Source: Phenylobacterium sp.
GTDB lineage: Bacteria; Pseudomonadota; Alphaproteobacteria; Caulobacterales; Caulobacteraceae
Assembly: GCF_030697925.1 (NCBI RefSeq)
Contig: NZ_JAUYOJ010000036.1
Location: 1 to 64,000, forward strand
DNA: 64,000 nt
Reading direction: 5' to 3'
In this document: positions 19,677 to 48,105 of the stretch, piece by piece
Layout of the letters: every line of letters begins with the position of its first letter
Position numbering within the stretch: the stretch's first letter is position 1
Made by a program: the position numbers and the translations under genes
The notes under the pieces: model-generated
Database searches by the model: none
Told to the model about the DNA's origin: nothing
What the model saw: only the letters and a program-made list of their open reading frames with translations

Positions 19677-21701
<2,025 letters not shown>

Positions 21702-30667: not shown

Positions 30668-30758
30668 GCCCGGCGTCAACTGGCCCCGGAGGCGGCCGGC
30701 GCGGTCTGGAACTCCGCGCCATCGCCTGCTAGACGGACCCTCGTCGCCGAAACGACGC

Positions 30759-30797
30759 GCGGGCGTGGTGGAACTGGTAGACGCGCCGGACTCAAAA
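30759..30797 (+). pseudogene. 5' half of the host tRNA-Leu(CAA), split by the island
   Basis: GCGGGCGTGGTGGAACTGG... through the anticodon loop matches tRNA-Leu, then the sequence leaves tRNA after ...CTCAAAA at 30797. The missing 3' half is at 50378-50423. The upstream bases (TCTGGAA-TCCGC and GCCTGCTAGACG) closely match those before the intact tRNA at 32628, so this was the original promoter and gene. Confidence 0.9.
30777..30797 (+). other. attL core (21-bp direct repeat)
   Basis: GTAGACGCGCCGGACTC followed by AAAA; identical to 50357-50377. It is flanked by tRNA 5' sequence on the left and element sequence (GCCAAAACG...) on the right. Confidence 0.9.
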
Positions 30798-30853
30798 GCC
30801 AAAACGTCCAGATTTTCCGCAATAAAATCAAATACTTAGCGCAAATGCAGCGC

Positions 30854-31023
30854 TTGCACAGCTGTTGCACAGTTGGTCGAATTGGCGATCCACGCGTCGT
30901 CGATTCCAAGGTCTAGCCGCGTTCTTTGTCCGAAATTCCGGAAAAAGTCCGGAAAACTAGAATCATGTCGCAACAATACATCATGTTTTCAATTTCTTAG
31001 CTCTTACACACCTTCTTCCACAT
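30854..31023 (+). repeat. Integrase-arm-like repeats beside attL
   Basis: Two tandem 11-mers TTGCACAGCTG/TTGCACAGTTG occupy 30854-30875, two TCCGGAAAA copies 11 bases apart lie at 30937-30956, and TTACACACCTTCTTCCACAT is at 31004-31023. The last matches 17 of 20 bases of the box found at both right-end modules (46588 and 50292). One-helical-turn spacing of repeats beside a core is typical of integrase or excisionase arm sites. The rest of 30,798-31,176 is AT-rich with no supported gene. Confidence 0.6.
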
Positions 31024-31176
31024 AAACGAAAATGCGGCTAGTAGGCCGAGCGTCATTGGTGTGCGATCCGTGGCGGCCGTGATCGCCTGATCTGGACCCT
31101 TGAGCCGCGGAATCCGATCGGCTAGGCTGCAACCTATAGGGGATGTTGGATTGGCTTAAGCGCTTGGGTCGCGAGC

Positions 31177-32496
31177 ATGCCTGATCAGAAACTCACCTTG
31201 ATGGATGGTCGACTGCACGTCTATCGGCGCGCCAACAGTCGCTTCTGGCAGTGCGCCGTCTTCATCGACGGGCGCAATTATCGGACCTCCACCCGCTCAG
31301 ACAATCTCGCCGTCGCCCAAGCCTTCGCCCGCGAGTGGTACCTGGATCGTCATGCCGAGCGCCGGCTGCGCCAGCGTGGCACGACTGATGAGAGCGTCTC
31401 ACCAGGCCTGCCTGACGCCAATCCGGCGCCTCCGAGGCGGCCCAAGGGACCAACCTTTCGCGAGGCGGCGGAGCACTTCCTGGCCGAGTATCATGTCATC
31501 ACGCTGGGCGAGCGGAACCTGGAACACGTCGCCTCCAAGGCTCGGCACCTGAAGACGCATCTCCTTCCATTCTTCGGCGAGCTGCCAGTCGCCAAGGTCA
31601 GCGCCGGACAGATCCAGGCCTATCGGGTTCACCGCGCCAGCCCGTCGGGTGAACCCGGCGCCAAGCGGCCGGCGCGCAGCACGCTGAACAAGGAGATCGT
31701 GACCCTTCGCCAGGTCCTGAAGACCGCCAACCGGCAGGGATGGATCGACGCCCTCCCCGACATGTCGGCGCCCTACAAGGGCTCCGGGAAGATCTCGCAC
31801 CGCGCCTGGCTCTCGCCCGACGAATATAAGCGCCTCTACGAAGCCACCCGGGACCGGGCCAAGGCGCCCAAGCGCGAGCGCTGGCGCGGCGAGTGCGAGC
31901 AGCTCCATGACTACGTGCTCTTCATGGTAAACACCGGGCTTCGACCCGACGAGGCCTCGCAGCTCCAGTACCGAGACATCGACACGGTCGTGGACGAGGC
32001 GACCGGCGAGCGGATCCTCGAGATCGAGGTCCGCGGCAAGCGTGGCGTCGGCTACTGCAAGAGCAGGCCGGGCGCGGTGCTGCCGATCCAGCGCATGCGC
32101 AAGCGCAACGACCCGCGGCCGACCGACCTGGTGTTCGGCAAGGTGCAGCGCGAGCTTCTCAACTCGGTTCTGGAAGAGGCCGGGCTGAAACGGGACCGGG
32201 ATGGGAATCTGCGGACCGCCTACAGCCTGCGCCACACCTACATCTGCATGCGGTTGATGGAAGGCGCCGACATCTACCAGATCGCCAAGAACTGCCGCAC
32301 CAGCGTCGAGATGATCGAGAAATTCTACGCGGCCCACATCAAGAACACCCTGGACGCCGGCGCCATCAACGTGCGCAAAGCGGCTATTCCGCGGAAGGGA
32401 CCTTCCGCGAAAAGGACCCCGGCGAACGCCAAGGGGTCCTCCGGGGCGAACGCCCCCATGGACCTGGATCACAAGGCCTTCGCCACGGCGCGCTGA
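31177..32496 (+). CDS. Tyrosine-type site-specific integrase
   Basis: The 439-residue protein has an N-terminal arm-binding-like part (SRFWQCAVFIDGRNYRTSTRSDNL), a core-binding SAM-like domain (about 95-190), and a catalytic domain with R256 (VNTGLRPDEASQLQ), R352-H353 (AYSLRHTYICMRL) and nucleophile Y384 (IEKFYAAH). The usual histidine before the second arginine is replaced by Tyr (AYSLRH), a tolerated variation. It starts 380 bases inside attL and reads inward, the standard place for the integrase of a tRNA-targeting element. It should recombine the 21-bp core. Confidence 0.93.
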   Translation: MPDQKLTLMDGRLHVYRRANSRFWQCAVFIDGRNYRTSTRSDNLAVAQAFAREWYLDRHAERRLRQRGTTDESVSPGLPDANPAPPRRPKGPTFREAAEHFLAEYHVITLGERNLEHVASKARHLKTHLLPFFGELPVAKVSAGQIQAYRVHRASPSGEPGAKRPARSTLNKEIVTLRQVLKTANRQGWIDALPDMSAPYKGSGKISHRAWLSPDEYKRLYEATRDRAKAPKRERWRGECEQLHDYVLFMVNTGLRPDEASQLQYRDIDTVVDEATGERILEIEVRGKRGVGYCKSRPGAVLPIQRMRKRNDPRPTDLVFGKVQRELLNSVLEEAGLKRDRDGNLRTAYSLRHTYICMRLMEGADIYQIAKNCRTSVEMIEKFYAAHIKNTLDAGAINVRKAAIPRKGPSAKRTPANAKGSSGANAPMDLDHKAFATAR

Positions 32497-32627
32497 TCCG
32501 ATGGCGACCGTAAAATGGACGGGGAAAGCGCCCTGCTCTTCCTCCTAGCCTCGACGAGAACGAGACCGCTTCATGGTCTGGAATTCCGCCTTCGCGCCTG
32601 CTAGACGACGCCGGTCTCCAGAGGCGC

Positions 32628-32712
32628 GCGGGCGTGGTGGAATTGGTAGACGCGCTGGATTCAAAATCCAGTTCCGAGAGGAGTGTCGGTTCGAGCCCGA
32701 CCGCCCGCACCA
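32628..32712 (+). tRNA. tRNA-Leu(CAA), intact copy carried by the island
   Basis: The 85-base gene has acceptor GCGGGCG/CGCCCGC, anticodon stem CTGGA/TCCAG, loop TTCAAAA (anticodon CAA at 32662-32664), a long variable arm, T-arm GGTTCGAGCC, and encoded CCA. It differs from the reconstructed host gene at five positions. Two of these are paired changes in the anticodon stem (CCGGA/TCCGG to CTGGA/TCCAG) and one is in the loop. Upstream it keeps the same promoter-like blocks as the host copy. It presumably replaces the function lost when the island split the host gene. Confidence 0.95.
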
Positions 32713-32749
32713 GCCGAACGCTACGTTCAGGCTCATCCGATTAGTCGCC

Positions 32750-33739
32750 TCACGCGACACCCTTCCCTATGAGCGCTTGACGATTTGATCGCAAGACGCG
32801 CGGCTTAGGCGGGCGACTAGGGTCACGCCAGGTGCCGCCATCTGGGTCCCAGGTCCCCCGGGCGCCTTCCGGCACGCCCAAGCCGGCGATGATCGGGCCG
32901 AAGAAATTGCGCAGCTCGGCCTGCAACTGTGGAAAGGGCGGCGGCTCCAGAGCCGGCGGGGTTCGGCGCAGGAAACCTGACCAAAGGTCACGCTCGGCGA
33001 TGGCGGCGAAAGCGTCCGTCAAGCCCAGTGGCATCTGTGTCGGAATAGCAGTCTCGCGGCGGCGAAGGGTTCCACCGACCGCCTCGACCACGCTCGCCAG
33101 GTCGAATCGGAAGGTGCGGGTGGTGACCCAGATATCGTGGAAGTCCTTGATTCGAGTGTTGGCCTCGCCGAGGGCGACCATCGCCTGGAACTTCTCCGCC
33201 ACTACGGTTTCCGGGGGATACATCAGGATGTTGGCGGCCGGCATATCCGGCAGGAGGCCGGGGAAGCTCTGGCGCTTGGGCGCCGGGTAGACGTGGTCGC
33301 CGAAGCCGATGTCGACTAGGACGCGGATCTTCGCGCCGGCCAGGGTGGCGTTCATCGCCAGACGGGCGCCTTGGTACTTGTCGGCCTCCCGCACCGGTTC
33401 GACCTTGAGCGATGCGGGGTCGAAGACGATGCCGTCGTCCTTGACCTCGACCTGCATGATGCGCGTGAAGAGTTCGGTCAGGGCGGCGGAATCCGGATTG
33501 CCTTCGCCGAGCAGGTCAAGGTCGCCGGTCGGCCGGAAGACGTGCTCGGGCCAGGTCACGAACAGCATGGCGCCCTTGAGCACGTAGCGCTCGGTCGCGT
33601 CGGTCAGGCTCAGGCGATAGAGCAGCCGCTCGATCGCATAGCGCGTCAGGATGCGGTTGTAGTCATCGCCATGCTGCCTAGCGTGGTTCAGGAGTCGCGC
33701 CCTGATCGACGCGGCGGGATCGGTGACGACCTTGGTCAT
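32750..33739 (-). CDS. AbiEii-type nucleotidyltransferase toxin
   Basis: The 329-residue protein carries the AbiEii motifs: VLKGAMLFVTW, TGDLDLLG (the DxD metal site), VDIGFGDHV, VVAEKFQAMVALGEA and TRIKDFHDIWV. Toxins of this type IV toxin-antitoxin family act as nucleotidyltransferases, some of which modify tRNA acceptor ends. The gene overlaps the antitoxin gene by 4 bases (ATGA), giving coupled translation. It ends only 37 bases from the island tRNA-Leu. It is probably involved in phage exclusion or in stabilising the island. Confidence 0.92.
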   Translation of the reverse strand: MTKVVTDPAASIRARLLNHARQHGDDYNRILTRYAIERLLYRLSLTDATERYVLKGAMLFVTWPEHVFRPTGDLDLLGEGNPDSAALTELFTRIMQVEVKDDGIVFDPASLKVEPVREADKYQGARLAMNATLAGAKIRVLVDIGFGDHVYPAPKRQSFPGLLPDMPAANILMYPPETVVAEKFQAMVALGEANTRIKDFHDIWVTTRTFRFDLASVVEAVGGTLRRRETAIPTQMPLGLTDAFAAIAERDLWSGFLRRTPPALEPPPFPQLQAELRNFFGPIIAGLGVPEGARGTWDPDGGTWRDPSRPPKPRVLRSNRQALIGKGVA

Positions 33740-34353
33740 GACTGCATGGCCTTGATGTAAGGTTCCATCCGGTCGGAGACACGGTCGATGGCCGCATAGA
33801 TCATCAGTTCGCTGGGGGTAGTCTTCCGCTGGCGTAGGGCGTCGCGTAGGGCCTCGACGGCGACGTCCTCGCCGACATGCCGGCGGTGTTTGAAGCAGTC
33901 GGCCACGGTTTTGGCTGCACCATAGATGGGGACCAGGACGCCCTCTACTTCGACATGTTCGATGCCGGCCGTCATGACCTCGCCGGTGGCGCGGACGATC
34001 TCGAGTTTGAGGCCTTGCACTTTCGGCGTCCGGGCCTTGTGCGGGATGGTCATCCAGACGGCGTGCGGCAGTTGGGTGGTTAGCTCGTGATGATGCAGGG
34101 CGCTGATCAGGCTGACGACGCCGCCGGGAACGAGCCGGGCTGCCTCCGCCAGGTCGTGGGCGGTGTGCTCGCCCACGTGTTCAGGTTCCTGGTAGAGGCC
34201 CCGGCTGAGGCGGACCAGCTGGCCGGTCTCGGTCAGGCGCTTCAGATAGACGAGGGGGATACCGGCGGCCTTGAAGTCTCGCGCGCGCGCAATTCCGCGA
34301 GCCCGGGTCAGGCTGAGGGCGCGTTCGCGATGAGTCATATGACGTTCGGCCAT
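33736..34353 (-). CDS. AbiEi-type antitoxin/transcriptional regulator
   Basis: About 205 residues with an N-terminal winged helix (RERALSLTRARGIARARDFKAAGIPLVYLKRLTETGQLVRLSRGLYQ) and the AbiEi C-terminal domain (SLISALHHHELTTQLPHAVWM; KTVADCFKHRRHVGEDVAVEALRDAL). AbiEi neutralises the toxin and represses the operon. ATG 34353 (MAERHMTH) or ATG 34338 (MTHRER) could be the start; neither has a clear ribosome site, so the mRNA may be nearly leaderless. Two TTGTCG repeats 20 bases apart (34365 and 34385) lie upstream. Confidence 0.88.
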   Translation of the reverse strand: MAERHMTHRERALSLTRARGIARARDFKAAGIPLVYLKRLTETGQLVRLSRGLYQEPEHVGEHTAHDLAEAARLVPGGVVSLISALHHHELTTQLPHAVWMTIPHKARTPKVQGLKLEIVRATGEVMTAGIEHVEVEGVLVPIYGAAKTVADCFKHRRHVGEDVAVEALRDALRQRKTTPSELMIYAAIDRVSDRMEPYIKAMQS

Positions 34354-34421
34354 GATGTTATCTATTGTCGGCAAAAATCCTAATTTGTCGACGAAAGGTA
34401 CGGGTTGGGAAATCTCAACTG

Positions 34422-34444
34422 ATGTCATATATTTCCTATGACAT
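34422..34444. promoter_or_regulatory. Perfect inverted repeat over the start of the XRE protein
   Basis: ATGTCATA (34422-34429) and TATGACAT (34437-34444) are exact reverse complements with a 7-base spacer. The right half overlaps the ATG at 34443. A dyad of this size suits an XRE-type repressor, so the protein may control its own expression. The related palindrome GTCATATGAC lies at 34334-34343, at the start of the divergent antitoxin gene. Confidence 0.6.
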
Positions 34445-37400
34445 GAGTAACGCAAGCGCACCTGCTGAACTGACCCCGAAGCATATACGCGCGGCGCGCG
34501 CCCTGCTGGCGTGGTCGCAACAGGACCTGGCCAAGGCCGCAAAGGTCGCGACCTCGACTGTAGCCGACTTCGAGCGCGGTTCGCGCACCCCGGTGGCAAA
34601 CAACGCCCAGGCCATCCGCGGAGCCCTGGAGGCGGCCGGCGTTCGCTTCCTGCCGACTGGGGCCGTGATAGGCCCGGCCGTGCCGATGATCACCCAAACC
34701 AGTCGTCCAGGGACGCCCGTCCGCTGGGTCGACGCCGACGATCTCGCCACCTGGGCCGGCCGAACGGACGGTCCGGTAAGCCTGCCGACCCTGCTCGCTT
34801 TCCTGATCCGGGCTACGCATGGCGCCGCCGTACACCTGCACTTCCCTTCGGACGGCGGCGTACGTCATTCCGGTTGGGATGGACTGACCACTGCGGACGG
34901 CGGCAGCGACTATGTCCCGCAGGGCCAGGCGGGCTGGGAGCTAAGCGCCCAGCGAAAGGGCGTCGCCCAGAAGATCGCCAACGACTACCGCAAGCGGACG
35001 GATGAGCCCGCGCCGCTTGATCCCGCTTCGTCGGCCTGCATTTACGTCACCCTGCACCATTGGCCGCAGAAGGACGAATGGGCTCAGGCGCAGACGGCCG
35101 CAGGGCCGTGGCGTGAAGTACGAGTCTACGACGCCGACGATCTCGTCCATTGGATCGAGCAGACTCCGGCCGTCGGCCTGTGGCTCGCCACCCGCCTGGG
35201 CAAGCGCCCCCCAGGGACGCGGGAGCTGGACGAGGTCTGGGAGGAGTGGTCGCTCGCCACCCAATGGCCGCTCACTGAGGACCTGGTGCTCAGCGACCGC
35301 GACCAGGATGCCGCTGAGGTACTGCGTTGGCTCCGCGGCGAGCCCTCGGTCCTGTCCCTGCAATCCACCACGGCCGAAGAGGTCGTGGCCTTCTTCCACG
35401 CGACGCTGAGCGAGCTACCCGACGACCTCGCCAACGCCTACCGCGCACGCTGCCTCGTTGCGACCTCGGCTGCGGCGGCGCGGGCCCTGGCCAACGCCCC
35501 GGCGCCCTTGATCCTGGTCCTGACCGAGCCGGACCCGGGTCTCGCCGGCACCCTCGCCGATCGGGGCCACTTCGTACTGCAGGCCTATGACGACGGCCTC
35601 ACATCGCGGGGTGAGGTGCGAACCCTTGAACGCCCGTCGCGCGAAGGTATCGCCAGCGCCCTGCAAGCTGCTGGCATCGCCGAGCCGCGCGCCAAGGCGC
35701 TCGCCCGCGACAGCGCCCGCAACCTCGCCGTCCTACGCCGTCTGATCCCGGGCGCGCCGGGACGCCTGCCGAAATGGGCGGAGGAGCCGCCGCCGCGCGC
35801 GCTGCTGGCGGCGCTACTCGCCGGCGGTTGGGATGACAATGCCGAAGCCGACCAAGCCCGCCTGTCGGAGCTGGCCGACGCCCCCTACGATCAGGTGATC
35901 GCCGCCCTGACCCCCTATGTCGGTCAATTCGACAGCCCGCTGCAGAAGATCGGCTCGACCTGGCGCGTGGCGTCGCCGTCCGACGCCTGGTTCCTGCTCG
36001 CCCACCATCTGACGGCTGTCGACATCAAGCGGTTCGAGGCGGCCGCCCATGCCGTTCTCGGCTCGGCAGATCCCCGCTTCGACATGGACCCCGACGAGCG
36101 CTGGATGGCGGCCATGAAGGGCGTCAACCGCGACTATTCGGGCATGTTCCGCCACGGGATCGGCCAGGTGCTGATCCTTCTGGCGCTGTGGGGCGATCGG
36201 GTGCGCACCGTGCCGGACGCCGGCCGACGCGCCGACGCCATCGTCGGCAAGCTGCTGGAGAAGGCCGATCAACGTCGGTGGTGGTCTCTGTCCAGGGACT
36301 TCCGTCTGCTGGCCGAGGCGTCGCCCGACGCTTTCCTGTCGGCGGTCGAAAATAGCCTCGACCAAAACGATCCGCCGATCTCCGCCCTGTTCGGACATGA
36401 CGACGGCGGCATCTTCGGCGCTGAGCACCTGTCGGATCTGATGTGGGCGCTGGAAGCCCTGGCTTGGTCGCCGGACTGGCTGCCGCGCGTGACGCTCGAT
36501 CTCGCCCGGCTCGACGCGATCGACGTCAAGCCGCGACGCTACGTCAACGGACCACTGAACAGCCTGCGCGAGATGCACCTGCTGTGGATGCCGCAGACGT
36601 TCGCCAGCCTCGACGAGCGGCTTCGCGCCATTGATCTCATCCGCAAGCGGGAGCCGGGGACCGCGTGGAAACTGATGCTCGGCGTTCTGCCCAGCGGCCA
36701 TGACAGCTCGTCGCCCTCACCAACGCCACGGTGGCGGGATTTCTCGGTTGATAAGGTTGAGACGGTGACTTGGCCGCTCATCGGCCGCGGGGCCGTGGCG
36801 CTCAGCCAACGCCTGCTGGAGGATGTTGGTCTCGACCCCCACCGCTGGGTCGAGCTCATTGACCGGACTTCCGATGTCGCCCCCGGACCTGACGTGGTGC
36901 TGGATGCGCTGGAAGCGGCGGAGCCGCGCATGACCGGCAAGGCGGACCGGAATGTGATGTGGGACAAACTGCGGCGCGCCCTGAACCACAACCGTCAGTC
37001 CCCCGACGCCGAGTGGCGGCTGCCGGACCCTATACTGGACAGGCTCGACGCCCTGTATGATCGGTTCGAACCTGCGGACCCGCTGGAACGGATCGCCTGG
37101 CTGTTTCAGAACGGTGTGGCGCTGCCGCGTCCGTCCGCCGAGGGGTGGCGGGCCAATGAGCGAGACGTCGCGGCTGCTCAGGTCGAGGCGGCCAGGGCGC
37201 TCTTCACCGAGCGTGGCATAGCCGGTGTTCTGGCGCTCGCCCGAATGACCGAGACGGCCGGTTATATCGGCAGAGCCATCTACGACGCCGGCTTCCCGGC
37301 GTCGGATATCGACGCCCTGATCGAGGCCGCGGTTCGCAGTGATGAACCGCAAGAGCGCGACGTCGCCCATGGCCTGATCATCTCGATGTTCCGTGATCGC

Positions 37401-38504
37401 AAGGAAGCCTGGGGCGCTGAGCTGATCGCCAAGGCCAGGACTCTGGCTTGGGGCGACACCGCCCTGATCTCCATCCTGCGAGCCCTGCCGACCGCGCGTT
37501 GGACCTGGGACCAGGTCGCGGCGATCGGCGGCGAGATCGAAACCACCTATTGGCGCCGCGCGCCGGTGTTCTGGATGAGCGAAGACAGCGAGGATGTCGG
37601 CTACGCGATCCGCCATCTGATCGACGTTGGGCGCGCGCGACATGCTCTGCCTCTGGCCGGTCGTGACGCGAAGGTTCGCCTGCCCACCGAACTGCTGGTC
37701 GAAGTGCTAACGGAGGCCGCTCGCCAGCCCTTCGAGAGCGAGGGCGACGGCAACGAAGCCACCATGTTCCAGCACTATGTCGCCGAGACGCTCGGCGTGC
37801 TCGACGAGCGTGACGACGTTGATCGCAACGCGCTGGTAACGCTGGAATGGAATTACCTGCGGCTCCTGGAGCATTCTCGTCGCCCGGCGAAGGTGCTGCT
37901 CCGCGCCCTGTCCGAAGAGCCACCGCTATTCATCCAAATGCTCAGCGCCGTTTTCCGGCCGCGTGAGGAGAGCGGCGTCGTCGAGCCTGAGCCCGCCGAT
38001 CCCGAACAGGCCCGAGCCGTCGCCAGCCAGGCCTATCGCCTGCTGTCGCTCTGGAACCGCCTGCCGGGAACGCGGGAGGACGGCACGATAGACGGCGGCG
38101 TGCTTGAAGCCTGGGTCAAGGATGCACGTTTGCTGGCTAAGGCGGCCGGCCGTGAGGATATCGCTGACAGCAAAATTGGCGAGATGCTGTCAGCTTCGCC
38201 GATCGGCGTGGATGGCGCCTGGCCGGCCGAGCCGGTGCGCGAGGTGCTCGATCTCTTTCACAGCAAGCCGATGCTCGATGGTTTTCAGGTCGGCAAGAGC
38301 AACCGGCGAGGCGTCACTAGCCGCATGCCGCGGGACGGCGGTGAGCAGGAACGTCAGCTTGCCGCCCAGTATCGAGCTTGGGCCAAGGTGATCGGCTTTG
38401 AGCATCCGCACACTGCAAAGGCGCTTGGCGGCCTCGCTGATCGCTATGACTGGGACGCCCAGCGCCACGACGAGGACGCCGAGCGCCTAGACTGGGAAGC
38501 CTAA
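34443..38504 (+). CDS. Giant XRE-nuclease-like-NTPase-like protein, putative defence effector
   Basis: A 1353-residue protein. Residues 11-68 form an XRE helix-turn-helix (HIRAARALLAWSQQDLAKAAKVATSTVADFERGSRTP). Residues about 110-250 contain GWDG (D146), VPQGQAGWEL (E166) and QKIANDYRKRT, followed by YVTLHHWPQKDEWAQ. This resembles a PD-(D/E)XK-like domain of large uncharacterised proteins. Around 300-360 the pattern looks like an NTPase (VLSLQSTTAEEVVAFFHA, then PLILVLTEPDPG) without a Walker A lysine. The remaining about 1000 residues are helical, Trp-rich and repeat-like. It is divergent from AbiE on a mobile element, fitting an antiphage role; that role is inference. Start alternatives are 34422 and 34443. 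Confidence 0.75.
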   Translation: MSNASAPAELTPKHIRAARALLAWSQQDLAKAAKVATSTVADFERGSRTPVANNAQAIRGALEAAGVRFLPTGAVIGPAVPMITQTSRPGTPVRWVDADDLATWAGRTDGPVSLPTLLAFLIRATHGAAVHLHFPSDGGVRHSGWDGLTTADGGSDYVPQGQAGWELSAQRKGVAQKIANDYRKRTDEPAPLDPASSACIYVTLHHWPQKDEWAQAQTAAGPWREVRVYDADDLVHWIEQTPAVGLWLATRLGKRPPGTRELDEVWEEWSLATQWPLTEDLVLSDRDQDAAEVLRWLRGEPSVLSLQSTTAEEVVAFFHATLSELPDDLANAYRARCLVATSAAAARALANAPAPLILVLTEPDPGLAGTLADRGHFVLQAYDDGLTSRGEVRTLERPSREGIASALQAAGIAEPRAKALARDSARNLAVLRRLIPGAPGRLPKWAEEPPPRALLAALLAGGWDDNAEADQARLSELADAPYDQVIAALTPYVGQFDSPLQKIGSTWRVASPSDAWFLLAHHLTAVDIKRFEAAAHAVLGSADPRFDMDPDERWMAAMKGVNRDYSGMFRHGIGQVLILLALWGDRVRTVPDAGRRADAIVGKLLEKADQRRWWSLSRDFRLLAEASPDAFLSAVENSLDQNDPPISALFGHDDGGIFGAEHLSDLMWALEALAWSPDWLPRVTLDLARLDAIDVKPRRYVNGPLNSLREMHLLWMPQTFASLDERLRAIDLIRKREPGTAWKLMLGVLPSGHDSSSPSPTPRWRDFSVDKVETVTWPLIGRGAVALSQRLLEDVGLDPHRWVELIDRTSDVAPGPDVVLDALEAAEPRMTGKADRNVMWDKLRRALNHNRQSPDAEWRLPDPILDRLDALYDRFEPADPLERIAWLFQNGVALPRPSAEGWRANERDVAAAQVEAARALFTERGIAGVLALARMTETAGYIGRAIYDAGFPASDIDALIEAAVRSDEPQERDVAHGLIISMFRDRKEAWGAELIAKARTLAWGDTALISILRALPTARWTWDQVAAIGGEIETTYWRRAPVFWMSEDSEDVGYAIRHLIDVGRARHALPLAGRDAKVRLPTELLVEVLTEAARQPFESEGDGNEATMFQHYVAETLGVLDERDDVDRNALVTLEWNYLRLLEHSRRPAKVLLRALSEEPPLFIQMLSAVFRPREESGVVEPEPADPEQARAVASQAYRLLSLWNRLPGTREDGTIDGGVLEAWVKDARLLAKAAGREDIADSKIGEMLSASPIGVDGAWPAEPVREVLDLFHSKPMLDGFQVGKSNRRGVTSRMPRDGGEQERQLAAQYRAWAKVIGFEHPHTAKALGGLADRYDWDAQRHDEDAERLDWEA

Positions 38505-38569
38505 GTCTCCGCAGACCATCGCGTAGCGCCCCACTGCTTTGACCTTGTGGATGTCCTTCCGCCAGCAGT

Positions 38570-39025
38570 CTACGACGTTCCGAGATAGTCCTTCTTGCCG
38601 ACCTCGACCCCGTTGCGCCGCAGGATCGCGTAGGCGGTCGTCAGGTGGAAATAGAAGTTCGGCATCGCCTGATCGAGCAGATAGGACTGGCCCATCACCA
38701 CGCTGGTCTGGCCGCGCCGAACCAGGGTGATTTCGCGCGCCTCGGAGCCATCGATCCGGTCGGCGCCAAAGGTCCCCACATAGGCCGCTGTCTTCTCCAC
38801 CCGGGTGATCAGGTCGCTGAAGCTGACTTCGTCGTCCGCCCACGCCGGCGGCTCCTCGCCGGCCAGCCGCGCGATCGCCCCCTTGGCGAAGTCGGTGCAG
38901 ATCTGCACCTGCCTGACGAGGGGGAACATGTCTGGATAGAGCCTCGCCTGCAGCAGGGCCGCCGGATCGAAGGCCTTCGCCTCGGCATGTGCGGCCGCCT
39001 TACTTAGCACCGTGCTCAAACCCTT
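38570..39025 (-). pseudogene. 5'-truncated DUF1993 gene
   Basis: The sequence from GLSTVLSKAAAHAEAK through DPAALLQARLYPDMFPLVRQVQICTDFAKGA and MPNFYFHLTTAYAILRRNGVEVGKKDYLG matches DUF1993 proteins, which are DinB-like helical bundles of unknown function. The first about 20 family residues are missing. At 39020-39027 homology stops and the opposite-strand TraA fragment begins, so the gene lost its start. The frame stays open further right, but there it only mirrors TraA. Confidence 0.75.
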
Positions 39026-39026
39026 G

Positions 39027-40856
39027 CGCGGGTCGGCCGAGATCGTTCGGCTGGGGCGCGACGGCAAGGGCCACGAGCGGTTCACCAGCCGCGAGATGCT
39101 CGGCGTCGAACAACGCCTGGAGAGCTCGGCACAGGCGCTCGCGGAACGTCGCGGACATGGCGTCTCGGAGCTTGCGCAGACGCGCGCGGATTGCTCGGCC
39201 CAGGCGCGCGGCCTCGACCTCTCGGAGCAGCAGCGCGACGCCTTCGGCCATGTGACCGGGCCCCGCGATCTCTCCATCGTCATCGGCTATGCCGGGACCG
39301 GCAAGAGCGCCATGCTGGGCGTCGCCAAGGACGCCTGGGAAGCCCAGGGCTACCAGGTCCGCGGGGCGGCGCTTTCGGGCATGGCGGCCGAGAACCTCGA
39401 GGGCGGATCGGCAATCGCCTCGCGCACATTGGCGAGCTGGGAGCACGCCTGGGCGCGGGGTCGCGACCGGCTGGGATCGCGCGACGTGCTGGTGATCGAC
39501 GAGGCGGGCCTGGTCGGGTCGCGGCAGATGGAGCGCATCCTTGGTAAGGCTGAGGCCGCCGGCGCCAAGGTGGTGCTGGTGGGCGACGCCGAGCAACTGC
39601 AGGCCATCGAAGCCGGGGCGGCGTTCCGGGCGCTGGCCGAGCGGCATGGGGCGGCGGAACTCACCGACATCCGCCGCCAGCAGGTCGGCTGGCAGCGCGA
39701 CGCCACGCGGCATCTGGCGACCGAGCGCACCGCCGAGGCGCTCGGGGCGTACAAGGTCGCGGGCCTGGTCCGCGATCACGCCACACCGGACGACGCCCGA
39801 CAGGCCGTGGTGGCCGGCTGGGACGCGGTGCGTCGCGAGGCGCCGGCGACCTCGCAGGTGATGCTCGCCTACACCCGCGACGACGTGGCGGCGCTGAACG
39901 GCCTGGCGCGGGCGCGGATGCGCGAGGCCGGCGCGCTTGGGCCTGAGCAGACCGTCGCGGCGGCGCGGGGCGAACGCGCCTTCGCCGCCGGCGACCGGGT
40001 GATGTTCCTACGCAACGAGCGCTCGCTCGGGGTGAAGAACGGCAGCCTCGGCGAGGTGTCAGGACTTCGGCCTGGTGCGATGAGCGTGCGGCTGGACGAC
40101 GGACGGCGGGTGGACGTCGACCTGAAGACCTATGCCGATCTCGACCACGGCTACGCCACGACGATCCACAAGTCCCAGGGCGTCACCGTCAACAGGACCC
40201 ACGTGCTGGCAAGTGCGCACATGGATCGGCACGCGACCTATGTGGCGATGTCGCGCCATCGCCAGGACGCGGTGCTGCACTACGACCGCGAGAGCTTTCC
40301 GACCGATCGGCGGCTCATCCAGAACTTGGGCCGCGAGCGGGTGAAGGACACCACGCTGGACTACGCGACGCAGTTCTCCGGTCGCCGCGGGATAGGGGTG
40401 GACCCGCATGCGCCTGCCGCGGATCGGCCAGGCATGTTCACGGGCTTCCGGCCAAGCGATCGCATGCCGCTCTCGGAGCCCGGCGTGAACCTGAGCGCGG
40501 CCGCCCAGGCCTATGGCCGGGCCTGGGCCGACGCTGATCGGATGTCGGACCTAGGACTGCCTGTGCTTGAACACCAGACGCAGGCGCTTGAGCGGGCCGC
40601 GCGGGCGCTCGACGCGGTGCGTCCTGGGCTGTCCGAGGCCATGGAACGCCGTCTCCGCGCTGAGCCTCACCTCGCCGATCAGGCGCGGCGCGGCGACGCG
40701 CGGGCGCTCCTGCGAGGCGCGGAGCAGGATCGGCTGAGCCTGGGAGGCGAGGGGAAGGCCGGGCTTCGTCAGGGGCCCGAGCGCGAGCTCTCCCTCGGCC
40801 AAGAGCGTCCGCCGCCCACCCGGGCGCGCGGCCTCGATCGGGGATGGGAGCGATGA
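39027..40856 (+). pseudogene. TraA-type conjugative relaxase, N-terminal relaxase domain missing
   Basis: The fragment starts at AEIVRLGRDGKGHERFTSREML, which normally lies deep inside Ti-plasmid-type TraA. It retains the helicase half: Walker A GYAGTGKSAML, DVLVIDEAGLVGSRQM, VVLVGDAEQLQAIEAG, and the later YATTIHKSQGVTVNRTHVL and ATYVAMSRHRQ motifs. The MobA/MobL relaxase domain that nicks oriT is gone, so it cannot start transfer. The 3' end is intact and overlaps the next gene by 4 bases (ATGA). The 5' junction coincides with the truncated DUF1993 gene. Confidence 0.85.
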
Positions 40857-41521
40857 GCGACGACCCGGCCACGGCGGCCTTCGATCACCTGCGCTCGGAG
40901 GTGACGCTCCTGCGGCGGGCTATCGAAGGGCTCTCAGCCCAACAGCCGGAGGCGCCGGCCGACTACGCGCCGACCTTGGCGAAGCTCAACAAGGCAGTCT
41001 CGCAGGTCGGCGAGCATCTTGATCAGATCTCGCTGAGCCCGGCGCTATCCCTCACGCCGGAGATCGTCGCCACGCAGCTTCGGAAGCACGCGTCGGACGC
41101 GCGATCTGAGGTCCATCGTGAACTGGCCCAGGCGGTCAGCGGTTTGTCCCAGGCGACCGGCGTGCTCACCAAATCGGCCGGCCTGATCCGGACGCGCGAC
41201 GCTCAACGGCGTTGGCTGGCCTATGCCGCGCTGGCGGGAGGCGCCTGCGCCCTCATCGCTTGGCTGGGCTTGTCCGGGCCAATTTCACGGGCGCTTCCGG
41301 CCGCTTGGCAGGTTCCAGAGCGGATGGCCGCAGCTGCGCTCGGTCAGGATCGGTGGGCGGCAGGGGCGCGGTTGATGCGAGGGGCAGAAGATGAAACCTG
41401 GCAACGCCTCCGCCTCGGCGAGGATCTGATGTTGCGGAATGCCGACGTGATCGACGCGTGCGCGAAGCGGGCGATCCGCCTCAAGCGGTCGGTCGCCTGC
41501 GAGGTTCGGATCGGCGGTTGA
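40853..41521 (+). CDS. DUF6118-like membrane protein linked to TraA
   Basis: The 222-residue protein has a helical N-terminus (AAFDHLRSEVTLLRRAIEGLSAQQ; TLAKLNKAVSQVGEHLDQI), one transmembrane helix (WLAYAALAGGACALIAWLGL, about 120-145) and a C-terminal basic part. It matches proteins annotated DUF6118 that follow TraA in alphaproteobacterial conjugative elements. It starts at ATG 40853, after GGGAG, and overlaps the TraA stop. It may assist the transfer machinery; function unproven. Confidence 0.75.
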   Translation: MSDDPATAAFDHLRSEVTLLRRAIEGLSAQQPEAPADYAPTLAKLNKAVSQVGEHLDQISLSPALSLTPEIVATQLRKHASDARSEVHRELAQAVSGLSQATGVLTKSAGLIRTRDAQRRWLAYAALAGGACALIAWLGLSGPISRALPAAWQVPERMAAAALGQDRWAAGARLMRGAEDETWQRLRLGEDLMLRNADVIDACAKRAIRLKRSVACEVRIGG

Positions 41522-41657
41522 TGGCTCTCGGCAGACAAGCGAAGCCTTGGCTTAGGGCCTGAGGCTTGAACGTCGGCTGCCTAGCGGGATGTCGTGGGTT
41601 CGAACCCTTCGCGCGGGTCGTGGGACTAAAGTTCGAAGCTGCGGCGTATATGTGACT

Positions 41658-42206
41658 ATGGGGCCGCTCGATCCACCGCCGATCCTCGATCATCTGGATG
41701 CGCTGCGGAGCTATGCGAGAACGCTGACGCTAGGGGGGCAGGAGGCCGACGATCTCGTCCATGACGCCCTGGTGCGCGCCTACGACAAGCGGCACACCTT
41801 CCGCGCCGACGGCGATCTTGGGCGCTGGTTGTTGTCGATCCTGCACAACACCTTCGTGAGCAACCTGCGGCGCGAGCGCGCCGAGGCGGCCAGGATCGAA
41901 AAGGCCTGGCGACCCGGCGCCGATCGCGTCGAGCCTGCGCAGGAGCACGCCGCCGAGGTGGCCCGCGTGCAGGCCGCCTTCGTCGACCTGCCGGCGGAAC
42001 AGCGCGCGGTGCTCCACCTCGTCGTCGGCGAGGGCCTTTCCTACCAGGACGTGGCGCAGGTGCTGAACCTGCCGCTCGGAACCGTCATGTCACGACTGGC
42101 CAGGGCGCGTTCCGCCCTGCGTCCGGCCGATCTGCGGGGCGAGGCGGCGTCCTCGGAAACGCCCCGCAGGAAGCTTCGTATCGTCGGAGGAACTGACGAT
42201 GACTAA
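41658..42206 (+). CDS. ECF-type sigma factor
   Basis: The 182-residue protein has region 2 (YARTLTLGGQEADDLVHDALVRAYDKRHTFRADGDLGRWLLSILHNTFVSNLRRER) and region 4 (LPAEQRAVLHLVVGEGLSYQDVAQVLNLPLGTVMSRLARARSAL) of group 4 sigma-70 factors. ATG 41658 is the likely start; the frame remains open upstream. It overlaps the anti-sigma gene by 8 bases and leads an operon with a redoxin/2OG-oxygenase fusion and a small membrane protein, suggesting a stress response. GGGAC-N18-CGT at 41622-41647 could be its own promoter, which is a weak match. Confidence 0.9.
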   Translation: MGPLDPPPILDHLDALRSYARTLTLGGQEADDLVHDALVRAYDKRHTFRADGDLGRWLLSILHNTFVSNLRRERAEAARIEKAWRPGADRVEPAQEHAAEVARVQAAFVDLPAEQRAVLHLVVGEGLSYQDVAQVLNLPLGTVMSRLARARSALRPADLRGEAASSETPRRKLRIVGGTDDD

Positions 42207-42960
42207 CGATCCGATCACCGATCTCGACCTGCAAGCCTATGTCGACGGCCGGTTGGGCGTCGACCGCTGTGGTGCGGTCGAAGAACACCTTGCGGCGCAT
42301 CCGGAGGCCGCCGCCCATGTCATGGCGGACATGGCGAGCGCCCGTGCTCTGCGGGCCCTTCTGGATGCGCCACTTTCGCCTGCGAGCCCTCGCGTCCTCC
42401 AGCGTGTCGACGCGCTGGCCGTTGGGCTGAGCCGGGGCCGGAAGTTCCGCAGGGCGGGGGTGGCGGCCTCGCTTGCGGTGGTCTTTCTCGGGGGCTGGGC
42501 GGTCGGGCAACTTGCCTCGGCCAGCCCGATGATCCCCGATTTCGTGGACGAAGCGGTCATGTCGCGTAGGACTGCGCTGCTGCGGGCGCGGATGGATTCC
42601 CAGCCGGAAGTCGTGCGCCTCGATCGGGCGGAGATTTCGGCGGCGACCCGGATTGTCCTGCCCATCCTGCCGTCCGACTGGCGCGTGACCGACGTGCAGG
42701 TGTTTCCCTCCGACGAAGGCCCCAGCGTCGGCATGGCGTTCCAGAGCCGCGAGCTCGGGCGTGTATCGCTATTCGCCGTTCGCACTCGGGACTCCTCGCA
42801 GATCTCGCCGACCACCATCCGGCGGGACGAGGGGGTGGTGGCCTATTGGCGTCACGGCGACATGGCCTACGCGCTCATGGCGTCGGCGGGGCAGGCGAAG
42901 GTCGCCAAGGTCGCGCGGCGGCTCGCGGCGAGCACGACAAGCGCCAGCGACCACTCCTGA
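42199..42960 (+). CDS. Membrane-bound anti-sigma factor
   Basis: The 253-residue protein has an N-terminal anti-sigma domain (DLDLQAYVDGRLGVDRCGAVEEHLAAHPEAAAHV) lacking the full HxxxCxxC zinc motif. One transmembrane helix follows (AGVAASLAVVFLGGWAVGQL, about 88-107), then a periplasmic domain (ILPSDWRVTDVQVFPSDEGPSVGMAFQSRELGRVSLFAVRT). It overlaps the sigma gene by 8 bases, the standard ECF pairing, and should hold the sigma factor at the membrane until a signal arrives. Confidence 0.9.
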   Translation: MTNDPITDLDLQAYVDGRLGVDRCGAVEEHLAAHPEAAAHVMADMASARALRALLDAPLSPASPRVLQRVDALAVGLSRGRKFRRAGVAASLAVVFLGGWAVGQLASASPMIPDFVDEAVMSRRTALLRARMDSQPEVVRLDRAEISAATRIVLPILPSDWRVTDVQVFPSDEGPSVGMAFQSRELGRVSLFAVRTRDSSQISPTTIRRDEGVVAYWRHGDMAYALMASAGQAKVAKVARRLAASTTSASDHS

Positions 42961-42980
42961 TTGACCGCGAGACACGATAG

Positions 42981-44051
42981 ATGCCCTTTGTCCAGCCGGG
43001 CCGCCCGGCGCCTTGGTTCGCCGCCCCGACCCACAGCAATCCCCAGTTCGCCTTCAGCAGCCTTGGCGGTCGCTTCCTGCTGCTGACCTTCCTGCCCCAG
43101 GACGAGGCCGCGGCGGCCGCCATTTGCGAGACGATCCGCGAGAACCGGGGCCGGTTCGGCATCGATCAGGTGATGGCCTTCAGCGTGGTGCGCACCGCGG
43201 CCTTGCATGCGCGTCAGCCCGAAGAGATCGCGCTGCGCTGGTTCCTCGATGAGGACGGCGCGCTCGGCCGGCTCTATGGCGCGGCGGACGAGGACGGCGA
43301 GAGCCCAGGCGGCTGGCTGATCATCGATCCGTCCCTGCGCGTCTGGTCGACCGGTCCGCTGTCGCAGCTCGACGGCGCGTTCCAGAGGATCGGCCTGCTG
43401 CCACGACCCGACGACCATGCCGGGACGCCAATCCATGCGCCCGTGCTGATCGTGCCCCGCATCCTGGAGCCCGCGATCTGTCGCCAGCTGATCGAGATCT
43501 ACGAGGCCGATGGCGGCTCGCCCTCGGGGGTGATGCAGCAGGTCGGCGGCAAGACCGTGGGCGTGCTGAGCGACTTCAAGAAACGGCGCGACGCCGACAT
43601 CACCGACGAGGCCCTGAAGGCCGCGCTTCGGCAGCGGCTCCATGCCCGGCTCCTTCCGGAGATCGAGAAGGCGTTCCAGTTCAAGGTGACGCGCATGGAG
43701 CGCTACATCGTGGCCGCCTATGACGCCAAGGAGGGCGGCTATTTCCGGCCGCACCGCGACAACACGACCACCGGCACGGCGCATCGCCAGTTCGCCTGTT
43801 CCATCAATCTCAACGCCGAAGACTTCGAAGGCGGCGATCTGCGGTTCCCCGAGTTCGGGACCCGGACCTATCGGCCGCCGACCGGCGGCGCGGTGATCTT
43901 CTCCTGCTCGCTGCTGCATGAGGCGACCCCAGTCACATCGGGCCGCAGGTATGCCTTCCTGCCCTTCTTCTATGACGACGCGGCGGCCGAGGTTCGCCAG
44001 GCCAACCTGGCGACCATCGTGCCCAAGGCGGCCGTGGCCGAAGAGGCCTGA
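42981..44051 (+). CDS. Redoxin-like/2OG-Fe(II) oxygenase fusion protein
   Basis: A 356-residue, two-domain protein. Residues 1-140 have a thioredoxin/AhpC-like fold (PGRPAPWFAAPTHSNPQFAFSSLGGRFLLLTFLPQD), but the peroxidatic T-x-x-C position is absent; C49 is the nearest cysteine. Residues about 150-330 form a prolyl-4-hydroxylase-type dioxygenase with Fe ligands H258 and D260 (YFRPHRDN) and H313 (LLHEATPV), and the 2-oxoglutarate arginine in SGRRYAFLPFF. It probably hydroxylates a protein or peptide side chain using O2 and 2-oxoglutarate. It is the third gene of the ECF operon. Confidence 0.88.
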   Translation: MPFVQPGRPAPWFAAPTHSNPQFAFSSLGGRFLLLTFLPQDEAAAAAICETIRENRGRFGIDQVMAFSVVRTAALHARQPEEIALRWFLDEDGALGRLYGAADEDGESPGGWLIIDPSLRVWSTGPLSQLDGAFQRIGLLPRPDDHAGTPIHAPVLIVPRILEPAICRQLIEIYEADGGSPSGVMQQVGGKTVGVLSDFKKRRDADITDEALKAALRQRLHARLLPEIEKAFQFKVTRMERYIVAAYDAKEGGYFRPHRDNTTTGTAHRQFACSINLNAEDFEGGDLRFPEFGTRTYRPPTGGAVIFSCSLLHEATPVTSGRRYAFLPFFYDDAAAEVRQANLATIVPKAAVAEEA

Positions 44052-44061
44052 GGTCGAGCCG

Positions 44062-44220
44062 GTGCAACTTCTCTCCAATCTGGGTTTTGGCCTCGCGATC
44101 CTGGGCCTCGCCAATGCGATCAAGCCCATGGCGGGCACGCCGTTCAACAGCCGAGGGCTGGGCCTCGGCGCCGCGGCCGCCGGCCTGGCGATCATCATCG
44201 TCGTGAACAATGTCGGCTGA
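44062..44220 (+). CDS. 52-residue hydrophobic protein at the end of the ECF operon
   Basis: GTG 44062, preceded by GAGGTCGAGCCG, opens a 52-residue frame with two hydrophobic stretches (LLSNLGFGLAILGLANAI and LGLGAAAAGLAIIIVVNNVG). It lies 10 bases after the oxygenase stop codon, so it is probably co-translated with the operon. No family recognised; it is likely a small inner-membrane protein. Confidence 0.5.
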   Translation: MQLLSNLGFGLAILGLANAIKPMAGTPFNSRGLGLGAAAAGLAIIIVVNNVG

Positions 44221-44365
44221 CGGGGCCACGGCGTCGGACACCCAAGTTGAGCTTTCGGCCTCGTTCGCCCGAACCTGGTCGAGTTGGCAATCGCGCGCGC
44301 CCGGCGTTCCCCCTAAGCTGCCGCCCGCGGCTCCGGGAGAGCCCCGCTTGGATTCCTAAGGTCAG

Positions 44366-45694
44366 ATGATCCTCCTCGCCTCGGCCGTCGTGCTCCTCCT
44401 GCTGGTGCTCAACGGTCTCTTCGCCATGTCCGAACTGGCCGTGGTGTCCTCCCGGCGCGCCAAGCTGCAGAGTCGCGCCGATCGCGGGGACAAGGGCGCC
44501 AAGGCCGCGCTCAAGCTCTCGGAGAACCCGACACGCTTCCTCGCCGCCGTGCAGGTAGGGATCACCTTGATCGGCATCCTGTCGGGCGCCTTTGGCCAGG
44601 CGACCATAGCGGGCGAACTCGACCTGATCCTGGAAGGCGTGCCGGCGGTGGCCGCCTATTCCGAGCCAATCGCCACAGGCGTCGTCGTCGTCGTCCTCAC
44701 CTACCTCTCCCTCATCGTCGGCGAGCTGGTGCCCAAACGCTTCGCCATGGCCTATCCGGAAACCATCGCCGCGGCCGTCTCCCGGCCGCTGTCGCTGCTG
44801 GCCAGGGCGCTCGGCCCCTTTGTCACCCTGCTGACCGTTTCGACGGTGGGCGTGCTTCGCCTGCTCGGCGTGCGCGACCAGAAGGGCGAGGAGATCACCC
44901 ACGAGGAAGTGGAGACCGTGCTCGCCGAGGGCGCGAACGCAGGGCTCATCGAGCCGGAGGAGCAGGCGATGATCAGCGAGGTCATGCGGCTCGGCGACCG
45001 TCAGGTCCGGGTGGCCATGACGCCGCGGCGCGACGTGCACTGGATTTCGCTGTCCGATCCCCTGGCCCAGCAGAAGGCCGATGTGCGGGCCTGCCCCTAT
45101 TCGCGCATCGTCGTGGCCCAGGGCGCCGACGTCGATGAACCCGTCGGCGTGGTCCACAAGAAGGACCTGCTCGACGCCCTGCTGGACGGGAGCGAGCTTT
45201 CGGTGACCGAGCTCATGGTGACGCCGCTCTATATCTCAGAGACGACCTCAGTCCTGAAGGCCTTTGGCCTCTTGAAACAGACCCCGCTGCACATGGCGCT
45301 GGTCGTCGACGAGTTCGGGGCCTTGGAGGGTGTGGTCACCGCCACCGATCTGCTGGAGATGATCGCCGGCGATTTCGACGAAGCCCACGACACCGACAGC
45401 CCGAGCGCGATCCTGCGGCGGGAAGACGGTTCGTTCCTCGTCGACGGCCGGGCCGATGTCGACGAACTGGCCCGCGCTCTCCACGCCGATTTCGGAGAGA
45501 CGGGCCAGTATCACACCGCCGCAGGCCTGGTCCTCCACGAGGTCGGCCGCCTGCCGACGGAGGGGGAGGTCTTCCAGATCGCCGGCTTCAGCGTCGAGGT
45601 GATCGACATGGATGACCGGCGGATCGACAAGCTGCTGTTCCGCAAGGCTCGCCGGGGAAGCGCAAGCACGGTCACAGATTCCATCTCCGCCTGA
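44366..45694 (+). CDS. CorC/HlyC-family membrane protein with CBS domains
   Basis: The 442-residue protein has an N-terminal CNNM/DUF21 membrane domain (LLASAVVLLLLVLNGLFAMSELAVVSSRRAKL). Two CBS domains follow (VAMTPRRDVHWISL..., PVGVVHKKDLLDALLDG..., HMALVVDEFGALEGVVTATDLLEMIAG) and then a C-terminal CorC/HlyC transporter-associated domain (FLVDGRADVDELARALHADF; AGLVLHEVGRLPTEGEVF). Such proteins take part in Mg2+ or other cation efflux. The protein is complete. A badly decayed piece of a relative lies at 47607-47925. Confidence 0.92.
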   Translation: MILLASAVVLLLLVLNGLFAMSELAVVSSRRAKLQSRADRGDKGAKAALKLSENPTRFLAAVQVGITLIGILSGAFGQATIAGELDLILEGVPAVAAYSEPIATGVVVVVLTYLSLIVGELVPKRFAMAYPETIAAAVSRPLSLLARALGPFVTLLTVSTVGVLRLLGVRDQKGEEITHEEVETVLAEGANAGLIEPEEQAMISEVMRLGDRQVRVAMTPRRDVHWISLSDPLAQQKADVRACPYSRIVVAQGADVDEPVGVVHKKDLLDALLDGSELSVTELMVTPLYISETTSVLKAFGLLKQTPLHMALVVDEFGALEGVVTATDLLEMIAGDFDEAHDTDSPSAILRREDGSFLVDGRADVDELARALHADFGETGQYHTAAGLVLHEVGRLPTEGEVFQIAGFSVEVIDMDDRRIDKLLFRKARRGSASTVTDSISA

Positions 45695-45736
45695 GATCGG
45701 CCGCGCCGAAGGGCGACAGCCCTGACCGGGATCGGA

Positions 45737-46587: not shown

Positions 46588-46669
46588 TTACACACTTTCT
46601 TACACACTTGATGAACTAGCAGAAAAAACATGAATATAATCAACTACTTATGGTAGACGCGCCGGACTC
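46588..46669 (+). other. Internal att module: arm box plus partial core
   Basis: The 20-base box TTACACACTTTCTTACACAC (46588-46607) is identical to the one at 50292-50311. From it to the core is exactly the same distance in both places (core begins at 46653 and 50357). The core matches 17 bases (GTAGACGCGCCGGACTC) and then diverges into SulP coding sequence (GATGTCC...). The intervening AT-rich DNA is similar in character, with many matching short blocks. Confidence 0.8.
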
Positions 46670-47588: not shown

Positions 47589-47606
47589 GCGAGAACCGTG
47601 CGCCTC

Positions 47607-47925: not shown

Positions 47926-48105
47926 CGTCACCCAAGTGTCGAATCTAAATATTGGCCAACAACAATCGACAACTAGATGAATACAAGTTAACCAATCTGC
48001 TTAAGGACACCGTAAACGCGGGTACATACTTATCTCACCTAGCTGATCGTCGAGTATTTCTGACGGATTGCCCTCCTCAGAACTACGAGACCGGGGGGAG
48101 ATCAA

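Follow-up and report, generated by a model that had tools for sequence, protein, structure and literature searches.

An element that splits tRNA-Leu(CAA) in Phenylobacterium and probably supplies its replacement, and its relatives in Alphaproteobacteria

In Phenylobacterium sp. a mobile element of about 19.6 kb interrupts the tRNA-Leu(CAA) gene of its host at the anticodon loop, and an intact tRNA-Leu(CAA) gene is located inside the element, next to its integrase. The split gene, the intact copy, the matching of isoacceptors between target and copy across relatives and a crossover region that includes the anticodon loop were observed directly; they are very probably explained by tRNA-dependent integration, in which the element splits tRNA-Leu(CAA) and supplies a replacement that would be expressed and needed by the host and may be spared by the integrase. 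It can be proposed that the tyrosine integrase of the element recombines a short core, formed by the 7-base anticodon loop and neighbouring bases, inside the tRNA-Leu(CAA) gene. As the attachment site does not hold enough tRNA to rebuild the gene, integration would destroy it, and the element-borne tRNA-Leu(CAA) would keep the host supplied; given this replacement, losing the element in any way but exact excision would be harmful. The element's own tRNA gene may be spared because its stem or loop is altered (CAA) or because a group I intron occupies the crossover point (UAA).

The element and the tRNA-Leu genes of its host

The window, i.e. the whole stretch of 64,000 nucleotides that was analysed (contig C229 of a 4.8 Mb assembly in 251 contigs with 90.4% completeness), contains the following features:

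30703-30735 (+): promoter-like block of the split native tRNA-Leu(CAA), 82% alike to 32575-32607 over 33 bp; putative promoter
30759-30797 (+): attL, 5' half of native tRNA-Leu(CAA) and left element end; core at 30777-30797 (21 bp, common with attR)
31000-31023 (+): putative arm-type integrase site, 75% alike to the repeat at 46584
31177-32496 (+): tyrosine-recombinase integrase, 439 aa; PHROG integrase, 3e-33
32575-32607 (+): promoter-like block 5' of the replacement tRNA, 82% alike to 30703-30735; putative promoter
32628-32712 (+): intact replacement tRNA-Leu(CAA), stem pair 28:42 and loop base 32 changed; ARAGORN, Rfam
32750-33739 (-): cargo, AbiEii-like toxin gene; Pfam PF08843, 1.9e-38
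33736-34599 (-): cargo, AbiEi-like antitoxin gene; Pfam PF13338, 2.7e-10
39012-40856 (+): cargo, TraI-like helicase; Pfam AAA_30, 5.3e-55, and TraI_hel_assoc_N, 9.7e-7
46584-46607 (+): putative arm-type repeat adjoining the internal core-like site
46651-46675 (+): internal core-like site, TGGTAGACGCGCCGGACTC then divergent; sequence comparison and pattern search
50288-50311 (+): putative arm-type repeat at the right element end, 96% alike to 46584-46607
50357-50423 (+): attR, 21-bp core (50357-50377), then 3' half of native tRNA-Leu(CAA); stem 5/5 paired with the left half

Both ends of the element (about 30798-50377) are tRNA halves. The 5' half comprises the first 39 bases of the gene, the tRNA sequence ending with the anticodon loop and being followed by element DNA, and its stem strand CCGGA pairs at 5/5 positions with TCCGG of the attR half. 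No tRNA-Leu was called by ARAGORN at either element end; that is, neither carries the regenerated intact tRNA found at one end of conventional islands. The intact gene follows the integrase stop codon after a gap of 131 bp; it was called by ARAGORN as tRNA-Leu(CAA) on the plus strand (32628-32712) and scored 55.5 bits with the Rfam tRNA model over 32628-32709, and the split halves align to it with 94% identity over 67 nt and 91% over 46 nt. The first-pass annotation of this DNA had described an intact and a split copy with similar upstream blocks, and a paired stem change from CCGGA/TCCGG to CTGGA/TCCAG together with a C to T change of the first anticodon-loop base. All of this was borne out: pair 28:42 is C-G in the split gene and T-A in the intact copy, loop base 32 changes from C to T, and one D-loop base and one variable-arm base differ in addition (by eye).

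Alternatively, the intact copy could be a regenerated attR end of the kind that conventional islands produce, a reading favoured by its distance from the integrase in some relatives (6-12 kb in G418, G444, G464, G439 and G407, about 20 kb in G438). Yet those same relatives, the window and others possess a separate right-end half, at 50357-50423 in the window, and many relatives have an intact copy whose acceptor stem is incompatible with the split 5' half; this reading is hardly credible and was rejected.

The integrase belongs to the tyrosine family, like those of tRNA-dependent lysogeny, according to its PHROG match and a fold search. Its match to Pfam PF00589 (2.6e-4) is under the cut-off, a relative (B) being above it, and no relative was found by sequence in the PDB. 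The fold of its predicted model (pLDDT 76) matches XerH, XerA, Tn1549 Int, lambda Int and Cre, with E values of 1e-7 to 1e-5 and TM-scores to the query of 0.3-0.4. Among 10 window ORFs scanned with Pfam, integrase included, no phage structural gene was detected. The toxin and antitoxin genes form an AbiEi/AbiEii-type pair (32750-34599, minus strand) directly 3' of the replacement tRNA.

A third core-like site (46584-46675), with a left arm 78% like that of attR, looks like the junction of another or an off-target integration, and 46676-50357 may be a separate piece without integrase. The sequence directly 3' of this site presumably corresponds to the middle of a sulfate-permease gene, and a STAS domain was detected downstream, at 47028-47588 (Pfam). 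Elsewhere in the window a TPP riboswitch is located at 21548-21656 (-) (Rfam, 70.4 bits). An ARAGORN call of tRNA-Pro(CGG) at 50540-50622 (-) was taken as spurious; it lies inside the start of an ORF that we take, from its sequence, to be acyl-CoA dehydrogenase-like.

The first-pass annotation had suggested a search for another tRNA-Leu(CAA) in the genome. A pattern search allowing up to 3 mismatches gave 15 hits, and ARAGORN, run on all 15 loci, called no other tRNA-Leu(CAA) there; the other loci were the two CAA halves, the halves of a tRNA-Leu(UAA), its intron copy, tRNA-Leu(CAG) and non-tRNA sites. The search covers genes within 3 mismatches of the pattern in a draft of 251 contigs at 90.4% completeness, and for this reason absence of a second copy is not proof; the gene at 32628-32712 is apparently the host's only intact tRNA-Leu(CAA). 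The leucine tRNAs UAG, CAG and GAG of the host are intact. A decayed 5' tRNA-Leu-like half ending in GATTCAAAA was noticed in the same genome (L012 1501-1523; G000:C206:80102); ARAGORN called no tRNA at that position, which is maybe a relic of a third element.

The exact CAA pattern was present in 184 of 200 genomes of the host's order, once in 176 and twice in 8. Seven of these eight genomes (the window genome, G022, G033, G054, G113, G133 and G181) contain the integrase, and the eighth (G192) has its copies on two contigs without an integrase match. In the host's genus (80 genomes) the pattern was found in 64 genomes, with two matches in 18, which in 15 of the 18 were a target half and an element copy. 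In this set G412 shows a tandem duplicate of the intact native tRNA-Leu(CAA) (L195 3276-4707, 1.35 kb apart) without integrase, G447 holds two intact tRNA-Leu(CAA) plus a further 3' half and shows no integrase in the stretches retrieved, and of the two matches in G414 one is not tRNA-like.

A second element was detected in the same genome. Contig C192 (minus strand) carries the 5' half of a split tRNA-Leu(UAA) and an integrase 61% identical to that of the window, followed after 53 bp by a tRNA-Leu(UAA) that contains an insert of 220 nt; contig C209 has the 3' half of the split gene at its start. The insert matches the Rfam group I introns with 44.9 bits (E 3.2e-10 for 601 bases; curated score 50). 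Since the CAA and UAA copies both sit on elements, no intact tRNA for UUA or UUG was found in the host outside mobile elements, and translation seems to depend on mobile DNA. As tRNA-Leu(UAA) can also read UUG, a cell that lost just tRNA-Leu(CAA) might survive.

Integrase relatives, isoacceptor matching and the crossover site

The integrase was found in 37 of 398 genomes of the host's order (E ≤ 1e-30); 44 integrase loci came from the species collection and one from IMG/VR. No match to the window integrase was obtained in 50,697 phage records at E 1e-30, and four plasmid relatives (E 1e-60) had no tRNA in their 3-kb flanks. After dropping near-duplicates (alike over residues 80-280) and rows shorter than 300 aa, 73 integrase rows were compared. 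Replacement genes were searched within 15 kb downstream of the integrase, on its strand, accepting only ARAGORN calls of CAA, UAA, AGA and AAA; in an unfiltered view of up to 3 kb downstream the only other tRNAs were a Lys on the minus strand in L091 and, in L104, an overlapping Cys call taken as spurious. Two calls, Phe(aaa) for L046 and Ser(aga) for L097, were discarded as out-of-register readings of intron-bearing tRNA-Leu(UAA).

In 47 of the 73 rows the integrase is preceded by a split Leu half and followed by an intact copy, and in all 47 the isoacceptor of the copy was that of the split gene (28 CAA, 19 UAA). The first-pass annotation had suggested that related integrases be inspected for an accompanying core-altered tRNA-Leu. 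The 28 CAA copies have no intron, and 19/19 UAA copies have one at the crossover point. On the best integrase tree the target changed between CAA and UAA at least 9 times, and in phylogenetically independent pairs on well-supported branches the replacement followed the target in 7/7 (sign test, p=0.016). In 38/47 rows no more than 140 bp separate the copy from the matched integrase; the distance is 1.2-12.3 kb in L153, L148, L154, L160, L147, G418, G464, G439 and G407, and about 20 kb in G438.

Mobile elements can carry tRNAs for reasons unrelated to an attachment site (PMC10865867, as far as its accessible sections go), and the intact tRNA could be a translation helper or an anti-defence tRNA as in phages. 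This is very unlikely, and was rejected, in view of the 47/47 isoacceptor matches, the 7/7 independent switches and the closeness of most copies to the integrase. The same matches and switches, in a gene that is usually single-copy, lend good support at the sequence level to the earlier claim that the copy would compensate for the destroyed gene.

Five rows have a split Leu half and no replacement: L051 and L071 are contig ends, in L086 an intron tRNA is cut at a contig end, in L210 the copy is outside the stretch, and L092 is a real miss, with no replacement in roughly 10 kb downstream. Conversely, L042, L148 and L149 have a copy and no half counted. Another 14 of the 73 rows are conventional, with an intact or regenerated tRNA at the integrase end and no downstream tRNA in the stretch (four of them, L048, L049, L059 and L158, assigned by eye). 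Other tRNAs are targeted as well: in L102 a tRNA-Ser(CGA) gene is split, and the tRNA-Ser(CGA) carried by the element, of which the contig end cuts off the last bases, has a different stem. In a scan of the host's class, where the integrase was found in 12 of 385 genomes at E ≤ 1e-60, G579 has a split tRNA-Leu(UAG), with halves on two contigs, and an intact copy with stem GCAGG/CCTGC vs CTGGA/TCCAG; an intron-bearing tRNA-Leu(UAA) behind a broken integrase was also seen in this genome (L272, L274, L276; G579:C26). The scan added further UAA elements with intron (L255, L256, L257) and a cut one (L262), as well as loci in which a tRNA-Arg or tRNA-Met is intact upstream of the integrase and the downstream side lacks a tRNA (L258, L259, L263, L264, L265; L268 is in the same genome as L263). 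In L267 (G474) an intact tRNA-Met(CAT) upstream of the integrase (1092-1168) is accompanied by a second, different tRNA-Met(CAT) 256 bp downstream (2734-2810), both in match orientation; either the locus is conventional and has an additional tRNA, or it represents a transitional state.

Two successive integrases were seen between attL and the replacement tRNA in L148 and L149 (G022, G196). G181 has two more integrases of the family (L146 17495-18754, L147 3510-4757) with no adjacent tRNA half seen; their gene surroundings are similar.

Right-end halves were located in 15/20 CAA and 9/14 UAA carriers searched, and where one contig holds both ends, element length is between about 11 kb (L097) and 153 kb (G431). 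In the comparison of 22 of the 26 end pairs then known (G444, G407, G438 and L097 were left out), the common core contained the 7-base anticodon loop in 22/22; it measured 7-23 bp (21 bp in the window) and in G022 was exactly CTCAAAA. The left and right half stems pair at 108/110 positions. As the core always holds the loop and the stems are paired, strand exchange would occur in or next to the anticodon loop, leaving too little tRNA in the core to rebuild the gene; a short core that does not rebuild the tRNA, at an attB inside a host tRNA gene, is also what characterizes tRNA-dependent lysogeny.

In 12/14 carriers tested the left flank resembles the sequence upstream of native tRNA-Leu(CAA) loci; that of the window does not, and that of G407 does so over 48 bp only. 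Right flanks of attR match native loci in 1/12 carriers (G459, at L163); the native loci themselves differ downstream. The 50 intact loci of this comparison include a few element copies (carrier loci such as L174, L176, L178, L181, L186 and L187), and L161 and L173 are one locus. Against native tRNA-Leu(CAA) loci the window flanks gave 0 hits on each side, and no syntenic tRNA-Leu locus emerged when flank DNA and proteins were used to look for an empty site of the window element. Compared by eye, the two halves of G464 are identical at every base to the native gene of G312 (L192).

Altered cores and introns in the replacement genes

The first-pass annotation had also proposed that the changed core lets the element avoid its own copy. 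Twenty intron-free CAA lineages, grouped by hand and including L104 (outside the 47 rows), were compared with 134 native copies among the matches listed, whose hand-tallied cores at positions 30-32 were GAC in 72, GAT in 58, CAC in 3 and GTC in 1. With these natives among the matches listed as reference, the replacement was identical to its target at positions 28-32 in 0/20 lineages (3.7 expected, P=0.014) and at 30-32 in 2/20 (10.0 expected, P=1.5e-4); by row, the figures were 0/28 and 2/28. Since lineages share replacement cores, they were collapsed to 10 distinct cores, which gave 2 identical vs 4.6 expected (P=0.07). Avoidance is consistent with the lineage counts, and the signal weakens on collapsing. 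Base 32 is the only core difference from the target in G022, G438 and L104, stem pair 28:42 the only one in G464, and the 5' half of L056 differs at one stem position.

The altered core could also be the outcome of drift, the tRNA having been captured from another species with a differing stem and without selection against self-targeting. Replacements are indeed often foreign, the same copy being found beside different split halves (L076/L078; L080/L081), and native cores vary widely at 30-32 (134 copies among the matches listed), to which the value after collapsing can be added; on the other side stand the lineage and row counts and the minimal changes of G022, G438, L104 and L056. Drift is a serious possibility that stops short of being probable. 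The reading in which an altered stem or loop (CAA) or an intron (UAA) stops the integrase from targeting the element's own tRNA is consistent with the sequences compared. Against it stands L070 (5150-5260), whose integrase has no split half upstream and whose replacement tRNA is itself broken just after the anticodon loop; this replacement may be usable by another integrase.

The insert of the UAA replacements is, judging from its sequence, probably a group I intron of the self-splicing type. RF00028 matched in 17/17 intron loci scanned (E ≤ 4.7e-5), 13 of them distinct (11 elements plus G017 and G057), and 5/17 (3 distinct) reached the curated score. The 23 introns aligned are homologous, with a median pairwise identity of 79%; all end in G and have, close to their start, TGAGTGC, a motif able to pair with exon ACUU (by eye), placing a U.G pair at the 5' splice site. 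Intron-free intact tRNA-Leu(UAA) was found in 89 of 200 genomes and in 0/10 genomes with an intron copy, 101 genomes matching neither pattern; the intron pattern misses copies whose intron starts differently (G181). Native UAA genes have GAC at 30-32 in 87/89 (exceptions G157 and G061) and CAA natives vary, and it can be hypothesized that recoding is used where the anticodon arm is variable and the intron where the arm is invariant.

On this view, the elements would be a vehicle through which introns of tRNA-Leu(UAA) spread and reach fixation; this joint reading is held tentatively, at somewhat under even confidence. Shielding of the site by the intron, if it occurs, would add a new function to those of self-splicing introns. 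Quite conceivable too, without reaching probability, is that the intron is a passenger, i.e. that a single entry of a group I intron into the tRNA was followed by inheritance, site protection playing no part. The homology of the 23 introns (79%), located in the anticodon of tRNA-Leu(UAA), a known group I site (PMC4033280, in the part available), would agree with a passenger, as would the intron tRNAs of G017 and G057, which have no integrase in the 16 kb fetched, and the exon stem, which also differs from the target in 17/19 UAA rows. Against this, the intron is present in 19/19 UAA replacements, the 89 intron-free natives include none of the 10 intron genomes (101 of the 200 matching neither pattern), and in L046, L097, L149 and L256 the 5' exon stem is that of the target, the intron being the sole difference seen in the 5' core.

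Relation to known systems and evolution of the family

Replacement of a disrupted tRNA is already known and was published, according to the sections covered, as tRNA-dependent lysogeny in actinobacteriophages, in which a tyrosine integrase uses an attB inside an essential tRNA gene with a core of 8-17 bp that cannot rebuild it (PMC10865867). Phage Gaia targets tRNA-Leu-CAA with an 8-bp core and has its own tRNA downstream of int; in those sections the cases are temperate phages, mainly of Actinobacteria, with a Lactobacillus prophage cited, and the evolutionary relation to tRNA-restoring systems is called unclear (PMC10865867). The elements described here share with them the tyrosine integrase, the split host tRNA, the short core and the element-borne replacement; the integrase of the window element had no match among 50,697 phage records, and its ORFs among the 10 scanned in the window included no phage structural gene, one relative being in IMG/VR. 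The same sections do not mention recoded cores or self-avoidance, and 'intron' appears there once, in the title of a reference (PMC10865867).

Two strains of Sinorhizobium meliloti were reported to have prophages that inactivate tRNA-Leu(UAG) mid-gene and replace it with a foreign prophage tRNA-Leu(UAG); this case differs in involving prophages and, in the parts available, includes no intron and no such CAA or UAA case (PMC11476347). A mobile element of Vibrio cholerae disrupts the important gene recA and carries a divergent working copy; as far as the source was available, it differs in using a protein gene and no tRNA, in its inverted repeats and in inserting in both orientations (PMC4405046). 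Conventional tRNA-targeted islands (Islander) also use a tyrosine integrase, and crossover at the anticodon loop is a recognised class among them, but they restore the tRNA from an attP fragment and the elements studied here do not (PMC4383910, in part). In cyanobacteria and plastids, a group I intron is located in tRNA-Leu(UAA) as it is here, whereas in the present elements it is tied to integration and sits at the crossover point (PMC4033280, same part). In the literature searched, which mostly excluded subscription papers and was available in part, no published report of an intron-bearing replacement tRNA was found.

New are, firstly, this family of integrases and elements across Alphaproteobacteria, absent from the phage records searched, and secondly, the repeated co-switching of isoacceptor between target and replacement together with the intron-bearing replacements. 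tRNA-dependent integration is then not peculiar to actinobacteriophages and appears as a habit of an integrase family spread over Alphaproteobacteria.

The family holds both tRNA-restoring and tRNA-replacing kinds, and two relatives, L055 and L257, make the order of events testable. Both have an intron-bearing replacement together with a vestigial tRNA 3' half in attL; in L055, the one case among 52 attL examined apart from L257, the acceptor stem of this half does not fit the host 5' half. This points to acquisition of the replacement before decay of the rebuilding end.

Intron-bearing tRNA-Leu(UAA) is the sole copy found in G017 (L150 10227-10545) and G057 (L151 6845-7148), with no integrase in the 16 kb fetched. 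In G420 the only tRNA-Leu(CAA) found (L199 7374-7458) is of the element type (ACGGCA/TGCCG), with neither halves nor integrase in 12 kb. These three genomes are likely relics in which the replacement was kept, and the tRNA of G420 is possibly a domesticated replacement.
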